Shown: piece after piece, positions 92 to 58,124 of the stretch
Numbering within the stretch: position 1 is the stretch's first letter
How the letters are laid out: each line of letters begins with the position of its first letter
Assembly: GCF_003703975.1 (NCBI RefSeq)
Contig: NZ_QTJY01000004.1
Span: 124,001-188,000 of the forward strand
DNA: 64,000 bases
Source of the DNA: Larkinella soli
GTDB lineage: Bacteria > Bacteroidota > Bacteroidia > Cytophagales > Spirosomataceae
Reading direction: 5' to 3'
Position numbers and translations under genes: made by a program
The notes under the pieces: generated by a model
Told to the model about the DNA's origin: nothing
Seen by the model: only the letters and a program-made list of their open reading frames with translations
Database searches by the model: none

Positions 92-2473
92 TTGGAAAAA
101 TTACTTCATATCGCCAAACGGATCGGCCGGCGCCGGTGGGTCAGCGTACCGGCCGGTCTGGTCCTCCTCTTCATTACCCTGAACCTTCTCTTTCCCTTTC
201 ACGTCCAGCCCCGGTATTCCACCATCCTGACGGCGGCCGACGGCACGATCCTGCACGCTTTCCTGAACGACCGGGACCGCTGGCGCATGGTGACCGAACT
301 GGACGAGATCACGCCGGTGCTGCGGAAAACCATTCTGCGGAAAGAGGACCGTTATTTTTATTTCCATCCCGGCTTCAATCCGCTGGCGATGGCCCGGGCG
401 GCTTTCCGAAACCTGACCACCGGCCGCCGGACCTCCGGCGCGTCGACGATCACGATGCAGGTGGTCCGGCTGCTCGAACCCCGGGAACGCACCTACGGCA
501 GCAAGCTGATCGAGTTGTTCCGGGCGGTTCAGCTGGAGTTATTCTATTCCAAGGACGAAATCCTTCAGTTGTATGTCAACCTGATCCCGTACGGCGGGAA
601 CGTGGAGGGCATCAAGTCGGCCTCGCTGCTCTTTTTCGGTAAACCGCCCCAGCTGCTCAGTCTGGCGGAAGTGACAACGCTGACCATCATTCCCAACCGG
701 CCGTCGAGTCTGCGGCTGGGGAGCAACAACGCCCGGATCGTACAGGAGCGAAACCGCTGGCTGAAACGCTTTGGTCAGGCCGGCCTGTTTACGGCTTCCG
801 AGGTCGCCGACGCCCTTACCGAACCGCTGAACGCCCACCGGCGGGCGGCGCCCCGACTGGCTCCGCACCTGGCCCTTCGGCTGAAAAGCCAGTATCCCGA
901 CCAGCCGGTCATTCATACCGCCCTGCGGCCGGGCCGGCAGGCGCAGGTGGAGCGGCTGGTTGCCAATTATGTCGGCCGTATCCGGAGCCTGAACATCCAC
1001 AACGCGGCCGTGCTGGTGGTGAACAACCAGACCATGCAGGTGGAGGCCTACGTCGGCTCGGCGGATTTCAACGATGCCGCCGACGGCGGACAGGTCGACG
1101 GGGTGCGGGCGGTTCGTTCGCCGGGCAGCACGCTGAAACCGCTGCTCTACGCCCTCGCCTTCGACAAGGGTCTGCTGACGCCCAAAACCGTCCTGAACGA
1201 CGTGCCGACCAACTTTTCCGGCTATGAACCTGAAAACTATGACCGCCAGTTCAACGGCCCCGTCACCGTCGAAGCCGCGCTGGCCAATTCCCTGAATGTT
1301 CCGGCGGTGAAAGTGCTCCAGCAGATCGGCACCCCGGCTTTGGTGGACCTGCTGAAAAAGGCGGAGTTCGAAACCGTGAAGAAGCAGTCGAAAGTCCTCG
1401 GCCTGTCGATGATTCTGGGCGGCTGCGGGGTGACGCTCGAAGAACTGACCCGTCTCTTTGCGGCTTTTGCCAACGAAGGGCGGCTGCAGCCGCTGCTGTA
1501 CCACCCCCCGGCCCCCTCCTTGGCAAGGAGGGGGAGTGCTCCGCCACTTCCACGTACCGCAGAGCCACCCCCTCCTTATCAAGGAGGGGGCCGGGGGGTG
1601 GTTTCTCCCGAAGCCGCCTTTCTGATTACCAATACGCTGACCCAAATCACCCGCCCGGACCTGCCCAATAACTTCGACAACAGCTACCATCTGCCCCGGA
1701 TCGCCTGGAAAACCGGCACGTCCTACGGCCGGCGGGACGCCTGGAGCATCGGGTATAACCGGCATTACACGATCGGGGTTTGGGTCGGCAACTTTTCCGG
1801 GGAGGGCGTACCGGAGCTGAGCGGGGCCAATATCGCTACACCCCTGCTGTTCAGCATTTTCAATGCCGTCGACTACAACTCACCAAAGGGCTGGTTCCGG
1901 GCGCCGAAAGGGCTGACGATGCGGCAGGTCTGCGCCGGTACGGGCGACGTTCCGGGTGATTTTTGTGAACACACGATCGTCGATTACGCCATCGGCGGCA
2001 TTTCGCCCTACCGGCGGTGCAGCCACCGGAAAGCCGTCTGGACGGATGCCGCCGGGGCGGTTTCCTACTGCGCCCACTGTTTGCCCGACAGCGGGGCCGT
2101 CCGCCGGTTTTACCCCAATCTGGCGCCTGAACTGATCGCGTTTTATCGAAGCCGACGGATTCCGTATGCCGAAATACCGCCCCATCATCCCGCCTGCACC
2201 CGCGTCTTTGCACGGCAGGGACCGCAGATCGTCAGCCCGAACGACGGGAGCGAATATTTTATCAACCCCCATCGGCCCCAGCAGCTTCAGCTAAGCTGTC
2301 AGACCGAGAATGAGGTGCGGCAGGTATACTGGTACGTGAATGATAGACTGTACCGAAAAGCCGCACCGACCGAGGCCGTCTTCTTCCAGCCGCAGGCCGG
2401 ACCGGTCAAGATTTCCTGCGCCGACGACAAAGGCCGGAACACCAATATCCGGATTCTGGTCCGTGCCGAGTGA
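92..2473 (+). CDS. pbpC: penicillin-binding protein 1C (bifunctional glycosyltransferase/transpeptidase)
   Basis: Class A penicillin-binding protein that polymerises and cross-links peptidoglycan in the periplasm, anchored by one membrane segment at about residues 16-36. The glycosyltransferase domain shows EDRYFYFH (85-92) and TSGASTITMQ (114-123). The transpeptidase has the SxxK nucleophile motif at S346-K349, SLN in the middle, and KTG at 540-542. The tail resembles the BiPBP_C domain of the PbpC family. The start is a TTG: an in-frame TAG lies at 62-64 and no ATG or GTG lies between. A palindromic repeat inserted at 1500-1602 adds about 34 Pro/Gly/Arg-rich residues just before the SPEAAFL segment of the transpeptidase domain, without breaking the frame. 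Confidence 0.93.
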   Translation: MEKLLHIAKRIGRRRWVSVPAGLVLLFITLNLLFPFHVQPRYSTILTAADGTILHAFLNDRDRWRMVTELDEITPVLRKTILRKEDRYFYFHPGFNPLAMARAAFRNLTTGRRTSGASTITMQVVRLLEPRERTYGSKLIELFRAVQLELFYSKDEILQLYVNLIPYGGNVEGIKSASLLFFGKPPQLLSLAEVTTLTIIPNRPSSLRLGSNNARIVQERNRWLKRFGQAGLFTASEVADALTEPLNAHRRAAPRLAPHLALRLKSQYPDQPVIHTALRPGRQAQVERLVANYVGRIRSLNIHNAAVLVVNNQTMQVEAYVGSADFNDAADGGQVDGVRAVRSPGSTLKPLLYALAFDKGLLTPKTVLNDVPTNFSGYEPENYDRQFNGPVTVEAALANSLNVPAVKVLQQIGTPALVDLLKKAEFETVKKQSKVLGLSMILGGCGVTLEELTRLFAAFANEGRLQPLLYHPPAPSLARRGSAPPLPRTAEPPPPYQGGGRGVVSPEAAFLITNTLTQITRPDLPNNFDNSYHLPRIAWKTGTSYGRRDAWSIGYNRHYTIGVWVGNFSGEGVPELSGANIATPLLFSIFNAVDYNSPKGWFRAPKGLTMRQVCAGTGDVPGDFCEHTIVDYAIGGISPYRRCSHRKAVWTDAAGAVSYCAHCLPDSGAVRRFYPNLAPELIAFYRSRRIPYAEIPPHHPACTRVFARQGPQIVSPNDGSEYFINPHRPQQLQLSCQTENEVRQVYWYVNDRLYRKAAPTEAVFFQPQAGPVKISCADDKGRNTNIRILVRAE
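1500..1602. repeat. palindromic repeat family A, in-frame inside pbpC
   Basis: The ends are a perfect 22-base inverted repeat (1500-1521 and 1581-1602). Each end carries an inner hairpin of the form CCCCCTCCTTnnnAAGGAGG. The roughly 40-base centre is related to the copy at 31874-31977. Inserted into the pbpC reading frame, it is translated as a Pro/Arg/Gly-rich peptide. Related copies lie at 29234-29367 and 31874-31977. Confidence 0.9.
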
Positions 2474-23190: not shown

Positions 23191-23346
23191 CAGAGGTTGT
23201 TTGGGGAAGGATTTTTGCCCTTCCGGGCGGTTTGTCATCCCGAGGAACGAGGGATCTGGTGGCTGAATGACCCGCCCTCTGGAGCGTCGAGCCCCAAGAT
23301 CCTTCCTGCGTCGGGATGACAAACCGCTTCCCCAGACAACCTCTCA
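23191..23346. repeat. palindromic repeat family B
   Basis: Nested inverted repeat. The inner arms are a perfect 17-base pair (GCGGTTTGTCATCCCGA at 23227-23243 and its complement at 23311-23327). Outer arms pair at 14 of 15 bases (23195-23209 with 23327-23341). The TGTCATCCCGAGGAACGAGGGATCT core resembles interspersed repeats known from many Bacteroidota. One end touches the stop codon of the aldolase gene. The remaining sequence between 23078 and 23190 shows no gene. Confidence 0.8.
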
Positions 23347-26020: not shown

Positions 26021-26080
26021 GTTAGCATCCGGCAAGATAACAAAAATGAAACGGCTTTTGTCGCCGGACGTTTTTTGTTG
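26021..26080. repeat. 60-base toxin-antitoxin upstream element, copy 1
   Basis: Identical over all 60 bases to 26840-26899. It contains a hairpin (CATCCGGC with GCCGGACG) and ends in a run TTTTTT. It lies 10 bases before the antitoxin start of the third PIN pair. On the minus strand it contains GTTATCTTGCCG, also conserved at 19122-19157. Confidence 0.9.
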
Positions 26081-26839: not shown

Positions 26840-26899
26840 GTTAGCATCCGGCAAGATAACAAAAATGAAACGGCTTTTGTCGCCGGACGTTTTTTGTTG
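26840..26899. repeat. 60-base toxin-antitoxin upstream element, copy 2
   Basis: Exact duplicate of 26021-26080, 820 bases away and in the same orientation. It lies upstream of the fourth PIN pair. Perfect identity between copies flanking unrelated toxin-antitoxin genes suggests recent duplication or a moving element. Confidence 0.9.
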
Positions 26900-29233: not shown

Positions 29234-29367
29234 ACCACCCCCCGGCCCCCTCCTTGGTAAGGAGGGGGGCTTCGTTTCTGGCGGCCAATTTCTAAAGGGA
29301 GTTGCCAGCCGGTGTGCATGCAAGATCAAGCAAAGCCCCTCCTTGGTAAGGAGGGGTTGGGGGTGGT
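29234..29367. repeat. palindromic repeat family A between convergent genes
   Basis: Starts ACCACCCCCCGGCCCCC, then CTCCTTGGTAAGGAGG, and ends with AAGGAGGGG followed by TTGGGGGTGGT. The centre (about 29273-29334) differs from the other copies and is longer. It fills the whole gap between the stop codon of the SDR gene (29231-29233) and that of the convergent GH3-like gene (29369-29371). Confidence 0.88.
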
Positions 29368-31873: not shown

Positions 31874-31977
31874 ACCACCCCCCGGCCCCCTCCTTAGCAA
31901 GGAGGGGGAGAGTGCGCTGCCCCTTTTCAGTCCTGCGGAGCCACCCCCTCCTTAGCAAGGAGGGGCCCGGGGGTGGT
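31874..31977. repeat. palindromic repeat family A upstream of the M23 gene
   Basis: Ends ACCACCCCCCGGCCCCC and GGGCCCGGGGGTGGT, each with an inner CTCCTTAGCAAGGAG hairpin. The centre is related to that of the copy in pbpC. One end sits 1 base after the TGA of the HNH gene (31979-31981). Confidence 0.9.
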
Positions 31978-55477: not shown

Positions 55478-58018
55478 ATGACAAACATTGTGGTGGTCGG
55501 TAACGGGATGGCAGGCTTCAAGTTCTGCGAAAAGTTACTGGCCCGGACAGAGGGGATAGCAACCGATGGCGGTCGGTTCTCCCTGACGGTGTTTGGCGAG
55601 GAGCCCCGACCGGCTTACGACCGGGTGCATCTGAGTGCCTATTTTTCCGGAACCCCGGCCGACGAGCTGACCCTGGCTCCGGCCGGCTGGTATGCCGACC
55701 ACGGCATCCGGCTTTTTACGGGCGAGTGCGTCGTCCAGATCGACCGCGACGCCCGCACAGTTACCACGCATTCCGGGCGCTGCGTTCCCTACGACGTGCT
55801 GGTGATGGCGACCGGCTCGGCCCCCTTTGTGCCGTCGGTGCCGGGTATTCACAAAGACGGTATTTTCGTGTACCGGACCATCGAAGACCTCGAAGCCATT
55901 ACGAACTGGGGCCGGCAGGCCACCCGGGCGGCCGTGATCGGGGGCGGTCTGCTGGGCCTCGAAGCCGCTAAAGCGGCTCTGGACATGGGCCTGGAGACGC
56001 ACGTGGTCGAGTTTGCACCCCGGCTGATGCCCCGGCAGCTCGATTCGGCCGGTGCCGGGATACTCAAAGCCAAGATGGAAGCCATCGGCGTCTCCATCCA
56101 CCTCAGCAAAAACACCACGCATTTTGAAGGATACGACCGCGTCGCCGGTCTGCGCTTCGCCGACGATACGGTGCTGGATGCCGACATGGTGATCATCTCG
56201 GCCGGGATCAAACCCCGCGACGAGCTGGCCCGCAAGATCGGGCTGGCGATCGGCCCGAGGGGCGGCATCGTCGTCAATGATGCCATGCAGACCTCCGATC
56301 CGGCCATCTATGCCGTCGGGGAATGTGCCCTGCACGGCGGGATGATCTACGGACTGGTTGCTCCGGCGTATGAAATGGCCGATGTGGTGGCCTCGGCGAT
56401 TGCAAAACATGCGGATTTAGAATCCGAACGAGCAGCCGGACCGACGAAACTGTTTACGGGCTTCGACATGTCGACGAAGCTGAAACTGATCGGCGTCGAC
56501 GTGGCCAGCTTCGGCGATCCGTTCTGCGAAACGACGAAACACCGCTCGCTGGTCTGGGAAGACCGGCTGAACGGAATCTATAAGCGGGTCAACATCAGCG
56601 AAGACGGCAAATATCTGCTGGGCGGTATTCTGGTCGGGGAAGCGGAAGCATACAACATGCTGCTGCAGACCTGCAAAAACCGCATCCTGCTGCCGCCCAC
56701 GCCCGAAGACCTGCTGTTGCCCGCCCGCAAAGGCGAGGGCACCGCGGCCGGTGCCGGTGTCATGAGCTTGCCGGACGAGGCCCTGATCTGCTCCTGCGAA
56801 GGCATTTCCAAAGGCGACATCTGCTCCTCCATTACGGAAAAGGAACTGGGCGACGTGGCCGCCATTAAAAAATGCACCAAAGCCGGAACCGGCTGCGGAG
56901 GCTGCGTGCCGATGCTCGGCGACCTGCTGACCGAAACCCTGAAAGCGCAGGGTAAGATCGTCCGGAAGGTACTCTGCGAGCATTTCGACCACACGCGGCA
57001 GGAACTCTATGACCTGGTCCGGATCAACGAAGAGGAAACGTTCGACGAAGTACTGGCCCACTACGGCAAAGGCCACGGCTGCGAGGTCTGCAAACCGGCG
57101 GTGGCTTCCATCCTGGCCAGCGTTCACAACGATCTGATTGCCCGGCACTCCGTTATTCAGGATACCAACGATCGCTATCTGGCGAACATCCAGCGGGGCG
57201 GAACCTATTCCGTCGTGCCGCGGGTGGCCGGCGGGGAGATCACGCCCGACAGGCTGATCGCCCTGGGTCAGGTCGCGCAGAAATATAATCTCTACTGCAA
57301 AATCACGGGCGGGCAGCGCATCGACCTGTTCGGGGCGCGCGTCGACCAGCTTCCGATGATCTGGGAAGAACTCATCGAAGCGGGATTCGAGAGCGGACAC
57401 GCCTACGGCAAAGCCCTGCGGACGGTGAAAAGCTGCGTCGGGTCAACCTGGTGCCGGTTTGGGGTTCAGGATTCGGTCGGCTTTGCCATCGAGATCGAAA
57501 ACCGCTACAAGGGCCTTCGTGCTCCGCACAAACTGAAAAGTGCCGTGTCGGGCTGCGTCCGGGAATGCGCCGAAGCTCAGTCGAAGGACTTCGGGATCAT
57601 CGCTACCGAAAAGGGCTGGAACCTATATGTCTGCGGCAACGGCGGAGCCAAACCGCAGCACGCGCAGCTGCTGGCGTCGGACATCGACCGCGAGACCTGT
57701 ATCCGCTACATCGACCGGTTTCTGATGTTCTACATCAAAACCGCCGAGCCGCTGGCCCGCACCGCCACCTGGCTGAACAAGCTGGAAGGCGGCATGGGGT
57801 ATCTGCGGAGCGTGGTGATCGACGATGTGCTGGGCCTGAACGAGCAGTTCGAGCAGGAGATGCAGCGGCTGGTCGACGCTTACCAGTGCGAATGGAAATC
57901 GGTCGTCGAAAGTGATGATCTGCGGAGCGAATACCGCCATTTCATCAACACCAGCGACCCCGACCCTACGCTGGCGTTTGTCGAGGAACGCGGACAGAAG
58001 CGCCCGGCGGGATGGTAA
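55478..58018 (+). CDS. nirB: nitrite reductase [NAD(P)H] large subunit
   Basis: An 846-residue siroheme enzyme that reduces nitrite to ammonium. N-terminal FAD/NAD domain (IVVVGNGMAGFKFCEKLL; AAVIGGGLLGLEAAKAA), two BFD-type regions (LICSCEGISKGD with AGTGCGGCVP; YGKGHGCEVCKP), then the siroheme/4Fe-4S domain with SCVGSTWCRFG and SGCVRECAEA. A short palindromic sequence at 56412-56435, like family C in the GT39 gene, encodes an extra ADLESERAAG stretch between the FAD domain and the following FTGFDMSTKLKL. It is followed by nirD. Confidence 0.95.
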   Translation: MTNIVVVGNGMAGFKFCEKLLARTEGIATDGGRFSLTVFGEEPRPAYDRVHLSAYFSGTPADELTLAPAGWYADHGIRLFTGECVVQIDRDARTVTTHSGRCVPYDVLVMATGSAPFVPSVPGIHKDGIFVYRTIEDLEAITNWGRQATRAAVIGGGLLGLEAAKAALDMGLETHVVEFAPRLMPRQLDSAGAGILKAKMEAIGVSIHLSKNTTHFEGYDRVAGLRFADDTVLDADMVIISAGIKPRDELARKIGLAIGPRGGIVVNDAMQTSDPAIYAVGECALHGGMIYGLVAPAYEMADVVASAIAKHADLESERAAGPTKLFTGFDMSTKLKLIGVDVASFGDPFCETTKHRSLVWEDRLNGIYKRVNISEDGKYLLGGILVGEAEAYNMLLQTCKNRILLPPTPEDLLLPARKGEGTAAGAGVMSLPDEALICSCEGISKGDICSSITEKELGDVAAIKKCTKAGTGCGGCVPMLGDLLTETLKAQGKIVRKVLCEHFDHTRQELYDLVRINEEETFDEVLAHYGKGHGCEVCKPAVASILASVHNDLIARHSVIQDTNDRYLANIQRGGTYSVVPRVAGGEITPDRLIALGQVAQKYNLYCKITGGQRIDLFGARVDQLPMIWEELIEAGFESGHAYGKALRTVKSCVGSTWCRFGVQDSVGFAIEIENRYKGLRAPHKLKSAVSGCVRECAEAQSKDFGIIATEKGWNLYVCGNGGAKPQHAQLLASDIDRETCIRYIDRFLMFYIKTAEPLARTATWLNKLEGGMGYLRSVVIDDVLGLNEQFEQEMQRLVDAYQCEWKSVVESDDLRSEYRHFINTSDPDPTLAFVEERGQKRPAGW
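56412..56435. repeat. palindromic repeat family C-like sequence inside nirB
   Basis: CGGATT, TAG, AATCCG followed by AACGAGCAG. The GT39 copy has CGGATT, ACA, AATCCG followed by GACGAGCAG. It is in frame and falls at a domain boundary. Confidence 0.6.
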
Positions 58019-58100
58019 TTGTTGAATGATTGAATAATTGAATGATTGAACGGGCTCCGCAGTGCTAAAAATGGCAGCGCCCCATTCAATCATTCAACAA
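58019..58100. repeat. long inverted repeat between nirB and nirD
   Basis: A perfect 17-base inverted repeat (58019-58035 and 58084-58100) encloses an inner GGGCTCCGC/GCAGCGCCC hairpin. The left arm is also built of TGAATGATTGAA-like direct repeats. It could alter the ratio of NirB to NirD, or be a small mobile repeat. Confidence 0.8.
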
Positions 58101-58124
58101 TTCTACAACTCAAAAATTGAAACC

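Follow-up and report, generated by a model that had tools for sequence, protein, structure and literature searches.

The Rickettsia palindromic elements (RPEs) described by Ogata and colleagues are dispersed palindromes that lie in frame in unrelated genes and are readable as protein segments; a review puts nearly half of the R. conorii copies in genes (PMC10969869, PMC3733652). GTAG- and CGTC-tagged REPs are small stem-loops arranged as inverted dimers, mostly intergenic with some copies within genes, and the CGTC type is defined by a CGTC (TGTC, CCTC) tag and a stem of 8-9 bp (PMC3733652). Bacterial MITEs are of comparable size and have terminal inverted repeats (PMC10969869). Both RPEs and intragenic REPs are already on record (PMC10969869, PMC3733652, PMC2694212). 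For palindromic repeats of this sort in Hymenobacter or Larkinella we found no account in the open-licence literature, and an earlier publication may exist elsewhere.

The window analysed here, a 64,000-nt stretch of Larkinella soli DNA, holds a palindrome within pbpC (Table 1). The first-pass annotation had described perfect 22-base inverted ends and two inner hairpins, and both were found again; it had also placed copies near 29 and 32 kb between genes, which the flanking frames bear out for both. The palindrome arms are 35 nt long and 94% complementary; the inner stem has 10 bp (by reading), and the 12-nt outer arms pair with one another. Within the window, the 22-nt end had four matches at up to three mismatches, as against 0 in 100 shuffles. 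Single-strand folding of the palindrome was far stronger than that of shuffles (DNA z -9.6; RNA -89.7 kcal/mol, z -10.6). An Rfam search of the window gave no match at the gathering score. Its length of 103 nt is not divisible by three, and it is therefore the two junctions jointly, not the element alone, that preserve the frame. Five of the six frames through the pbpC copy are free of stops, and among 35 full-length copies the number ranges from 1 to 5 of 6.

Table 1. Coordinates of the element, its parts, its host gene and its intergenic copies in the window
Feature	Position	Strand	Remarks
pbpC	92..2473	+	793 aa; Pfam Transgly, Transpeptidase, BiPBP_C; insert = residues 470-504
Palindromic element	1500..1602	.	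103 nt, in frame within pbpC
Left terminal inverted repeat, 22 nt	1500..1521	+	end search of window
Left inner hairpin	1512..1534	.	CCCCCTCCTT-ggc-AAGGAGGGGG
Asymmetric spacer, 33 nt	1535..1567	.	resembles spacer of other copies
Right inner hairpin	1568..1590	.	CCCCCTCCTT-atc-AAGGAGGGGG
Right terminal inverted repeat, 22 nt	1581..1602	-	perfect complement of left end
Intergenic copy	29234..29367	.	spacer longer; flanking frames read
Intergenic copy	31874..31977	.	flanking frames read; 31906-31973 vs 1530-1597 = 81% identity over 68 nt

Other repeats were seen in the window. An inverted repeat at 23227-23327 has TTTGTCATCCCGAG arms and resembles CGTC/TGTC-tagged REPs, and another at 58017-58118 is AT-rich and similar in kind to the AT-rich inserts that some Hymenobacter carry in the PbpC loop. 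At 26021-26080 and 26840-26899 stands a direct repeat of 60 nt, identical in both places, with starts 819 nt apart.

The 22-nt end was then counted across the whole Larkinella soli genome. At up to three mismatches it occurred 171 times (89 on the forward strand, 82 on the reverse) and its reversed control 0 times, showing that the repeat is abundant outside the window. The hairpin pattern was matched 175 times in this genome and 0 times in each of eight congeneric genomes. Stretches fetched round copies among the matches listed gave at least 95 clusters, pbpC included; a looser grouping gave 97 clusters, pbpC excluded, with one stretch (L180) yielding none. Full-length copies have their ends and spacer in common. 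None of the 35 full-length copies showed a target-site duplication of four or more bases. Nesting within larger palindromes was discarded as a general rule, with strongly pairing flanks at 1 of 70 two-ended elements as against 2.0% under permutation and 0.5% at random places. A TGTC-type REP word lay within 90 nt of 13 of the 70 C-rich elements. Six stretches (L197, L165, L168, L176, L177 and L190) carried a variant arm with an extra CCGGAGCGCCGGTCC-type hairpin, which makes the family a mosaic.

Intragenic copies numbered at least three in the 95 clusters, and all three were in frame: in pbpC, in lpxK (Pfam match of the product, 8.4e-69) and in an EgtB-like gene whose product has DinB_2 and FGE-sulfatase domains (Pfam). 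In 3/3 of these proteins the left arm is translated as YHPP(A/T)PSLxRRG. At the corresponding sites congeners have a short native loop, both in LpxK (8 rows) and in the EgtB-like protein (4 rows; three of the eight congeners had no match, and match L289 fell outside the alignment). The element occupies the place of native loop residues in all three proteins, so a simple insertion does not suffice; residues must have been deleted along with the insertion, or the ancestral loop must have been different. A coding-score test recovered the PbpC and EgtB-like copies and missed the one in LpxK, where the element boundary had been set too short; that copy was found by reading frames, and a few further intragenic copies may have escaped. 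The same test flagged L153, a call that is wrong or doubtful because the same frame has two stops. L123, L126, L145 and L169, same-strand cases with differing frames, were ascribed to neighboring genes, for L123 alone with an ORF listing as a check.

The pbpC frame stays open across the whole element, in agreement with the first-pass claim of read-through without a stop. Positions 346-349, 400-402 and 540-542 of PbpC, which we take to be the SxxK, SxN and KTG motifs, are all present. An AlphaFold2 model from 22 sequences had a mean pLDDT of 86.3; the insert scored 37-50 (residues 476-498 below 50), between bordering ten-residue blocks of 92 and 94, so that the domain is predicted to be intact and the insert to form a disordered loop on it. 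The insert had been said to add about 34 residues. The element does cover about 35, but the loop segment as a whole has 69 residues as against 50-51 in congeners, a net gain of just 18-19, so that about 16-17 native residues are gone. In all seven congeners that have an orthologue, the element residues are absent and the native loop is shorter, and in the eighth (G001) no full-length PbpC was found. Of the two outcomes that would have refuted the first-pass annotation, the residues present in close relatives without the repeat and the repeat missing from the rest of the genome, neither came about. In the PbpC tree Larkinella soli falls outside the group of the seven other Larkinella, and for this reason none of the empty pbpC sites seen belongs to a near-identical strain.

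The genome is a draft of 82 contigs and is rich in this repeat, so an assembly or contamination artefact in pbpC was considered. However, the copy sits well within one contig, of 446 kb, with the frame open on both sides, and many Hymenobacter genomes, each assembled separately, have similar inserts; we regard an artefact as extremely improbable.

At least one match to the hairpin pattern was present in 20 of 150 genomes of the family (Larkinella soli counted), belonging to 9 of 36 genera. Of 390 genomes from the order, 74 (Larkinella soli counted) had the wider half-site ACCCCCYNRCCCCCTC, and these belong to 21 of 130 genera, some of the 74 having a single match where the reversed control reached at most 1 per strand per genome. 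The highest number of half-sites among the 390 genomes was 158, in G436 (genus g47). These counts are consistent with a C-rich family that is patchily scattered through the order and would have multiplied in this Larkinella lineage, chiefly outside genes.

Frames were also read in 20 + 14 loci, some common to both sets, for in-frame hosts in related genomes. A peptide query against 12 Hymenobacter genomes gave matches in nine, many of the matches having stops or lying in short frames. Besides pbpC itself, a methylmalonyl-CoA mutase has the frame open through the element, inside the mutase domain match, and in an ACR_tran transporter an open frame likewise crosses the element. Two Hymenobacter species have it in PDDEXK_1 nuclease proteins, before the nuclease domain, and one further protein, in which two CoA_transf_3 stretches were matched, has it before the best of these, again with open frames. 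In Hen1 the element, with an open frame, lies between the two parts of the protein, in a species whose PbpC has no C-rich insert (L215). Outside Hymenobacter, a hydrophobic protein without a Pfam match (L074, in G084 of the same family as Larkinella soli) has a frame open through the element.

PbpC was compared at 79 loci (71 + 8), in which five Larkinella species appear twice and two fragments lack the loop, leaving 77 loops. A loop was called palindromic when no more than two in 100 codon shuffles reached its inverted repeat, and 19 of the 77 passed. Fifteen of these 19 are C-rich elements, in Larkinella soli and 14 Hymenobacter; L217 and L222 are AT-rich, and L219 and L258 are short palindromes without a gain in length like that of the other inserts. 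L258 is a PbpC of the Desulfovibrionaceae with a short perfect palindrome at the same loop. Three further Hymenobacter loops (L208, L218 and L233) carry what are, by resemblance, degenerate C-rich inserts, and fail the test. Of five Hymenobacter loops labelled AT-rich by eye, the test backs L217 and L222 and does not back L220, L229 and L230. Related C-rich inserts were thus seen in the same loop of 17 of the 38 PbpCs of the Hymenobacter clade (14 clear palindromes and three degenerate). Half-sites were more numerous in Hymenobacter genomes with a C-rich PbpC insert (median 36, n = 16, pbpC copy included) than in those without (median 11, n = 19), medians that leave out L219, L222 and L237 and have exceptions in both directions (e.g., L224 = 2, L230 = 74).

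A quick PbpC tree was built with the loop excised, from the 68 rows that remained once the five repeated Larkinella, both fragments and four distant rows had been removed. The C-rich insert required 10 changes on it, or nine with degenerate inserts uncounted, a parsimony count that does not tell gains from losses. Eight of the 10 changes are forced by well-supported branches and nine fall inside the 38-row Hymenobacter clade. The label is also clustered (0/500 shuffles needed as few changes; mean 16.2), so the Hymenobacter pattern is partly inherited. Supported sisters differ nevertheless, as in L212 with the insert and L211 without (support 99), and L233 with and L213 without (97). Reading phases were scored over 18 inserts, with at least two phases found: the left C-run is read in a CAC-CCC-CCG-type phase in L035, L208, L216 and L263, and by the C-run in L233 and L238, and in a CCC-CCT-AAC-type phase in ten rows, with L218 and L261 left unassigned. 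The two phases would not easily be derived from one ancestral insertion.

The PbpC segment might instead be a selected part of the protein, its palindromic DNA being kept for a useful peptide or mRNA hairpin, as related inserts at one loop in two families and their clustering on the tree could suggest. We consider this quite improbable, since the differing phases give differing peptides, the low-confidence prediction is what is expected of disorder, and supported sisters such as L212 and L211 differ. The preference for the loop before SPxAAFL of PbpC could, on the other hand, be partly a matter of targeting and not of survival alone; the C-rich family would then have made an entry of its own in Larkinella and several more in Hymenobacter, in two phases or more. 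We hold this stronger form to be unlikely, at about the level of a one-in-four wager; if it were true, pbpC would offer palindromes a natural safe harbour within a gene and would give rise to new protein loops.

How the element is mobilized was approached through Y1 transposases. In a REP/BIME of a RAYT system, a Y1 tyrosine transposase moves hairpin pairs in trans via single-stranded DNA, an origin that hairpins paired in inverted order without target duplication would fit. Y1 genes are present in Larkinella soli (two: L033, on G000:C16, and L034, on G000:C6) and in 26/27 and 15/16 of the genomes covered by a first and a second search, G350 and G173 of the second looking like one genome. Yet both Larkinella soli genes adjoin other palindromes, and the element was at none of the 64 Y1 loci fetched (about 61 distinct; many matches of the first search and nine of the 39 of the second lie outside the set). 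In addition, G084 has the hairpins and no Y1 match, and the GTAG tag is absent. The sole pattern match among the Y1 loci (L349) was a different sequence. The palindromes near L033 and L034 differ from each other (gtcgctaaagcgac and cccccggttgaaaccggggg, respectively) and sit by their Y1 genes, by reading, as those of RAYT genes do. A RAYT link was not supported by these searches and locus inspections, and we view it as possible but doubtful.

The length of about 103 nt and the 22-nt terminal inverted repeats would also suit a MITE of a DDE-type transposon that has retained its terminal inverted repeats. Against this stand the 35 full-length copies without target duplication, as well as the one neighboring copy pair inspected (L123), which has ordinary genes and no transposase between its members; a MITE of this kind therefore seems rather unlikely. 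The searches made found no transposase or donor element.

Taken together, we favor, with a probability of roughly 0.78, a non-autonomous palindromic element that survives in tolerant loops, with pbpC as a recurrent landing site. It would be a REP- or MITE-like palindrome of two inverted hairpin units, a spacer and 22-nt terminal inverted repeats. As neither transposase, donor element nor target duplication was found, it is from the distribution of copies only that we infer movement as DNA. In pbpC the copy would replace a variable loop native to the transpeptidase domain and, being open in five frames, be translatable as a loop rich in Pro, Gly and Arg, probably disordered and tolerated by the enzyme; the peptide is presumably made and harmless, and survival of the element would reflect tolerance, not benefit. 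The same loop would be a repeated landing site for the related Hymenobacter palindromes.

Beyond the first-pass annotation, the analysis adds the absence from eight congeneric genomes, two further in-frame host genes and the related inserts in the Hymenobacter PbpC loop. Rickettsia is the best-known source of palindromes that code for protein, and the same habit is seen here in free-living, culturable bacteria. Repeated entry into one enzyme loop offers natural replicates that could distinguish mere survival where tolerated from aiming at sites, and that bear on whether repeats seed new protein segments. Annotators should be wary of Pro/Gly/Arg-rich inserts like this one, which can be repeat DNA.

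Among the described systems, the element is like MITEs in size and terminal inverted repeats, and unlike them in lacking target-site duplications; no parent transposon was seen at the one neighboring copy pair inspected. It is like the tagged REPs in consisting of inverted dimers of small stem-loops that are mainly intergenic, with some copies in genes. Unlike them, its 35 full-length copies carry GTAG, CGTC, TGTC or CCTC tags at 0/65 inner feet and 1/70 outer ends; its stem is 10 bp by reading, as against 8-9 bp in CGTC REPs, and has pairing 12-nt outer arms, and it flanks a Y1 gene, as a GTAG REP with its RAYT would, at none of the 64 loci fetched. The likeness to RPEs proposed by the first-pass annotation holds for the way of working, a many-copy palindromic DNA repeat inserted in frame in genes of unrelated function (PbpC, LpxK, the EgtB-like protein and the Hymenobacter genes), and, being a likeness of description, does not by itself make the element a member of an RPE family. 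The Larkinella and Hymenobacter hosts are free-living and of another phylum, and 3/95 examined copies are intragenic here as against nearly half in R. conorii. Unlike RPEs as the available portions of PMC10969869 and PMC3733652 describe them, these palindromes have made recurrent use of one PbpC loop.
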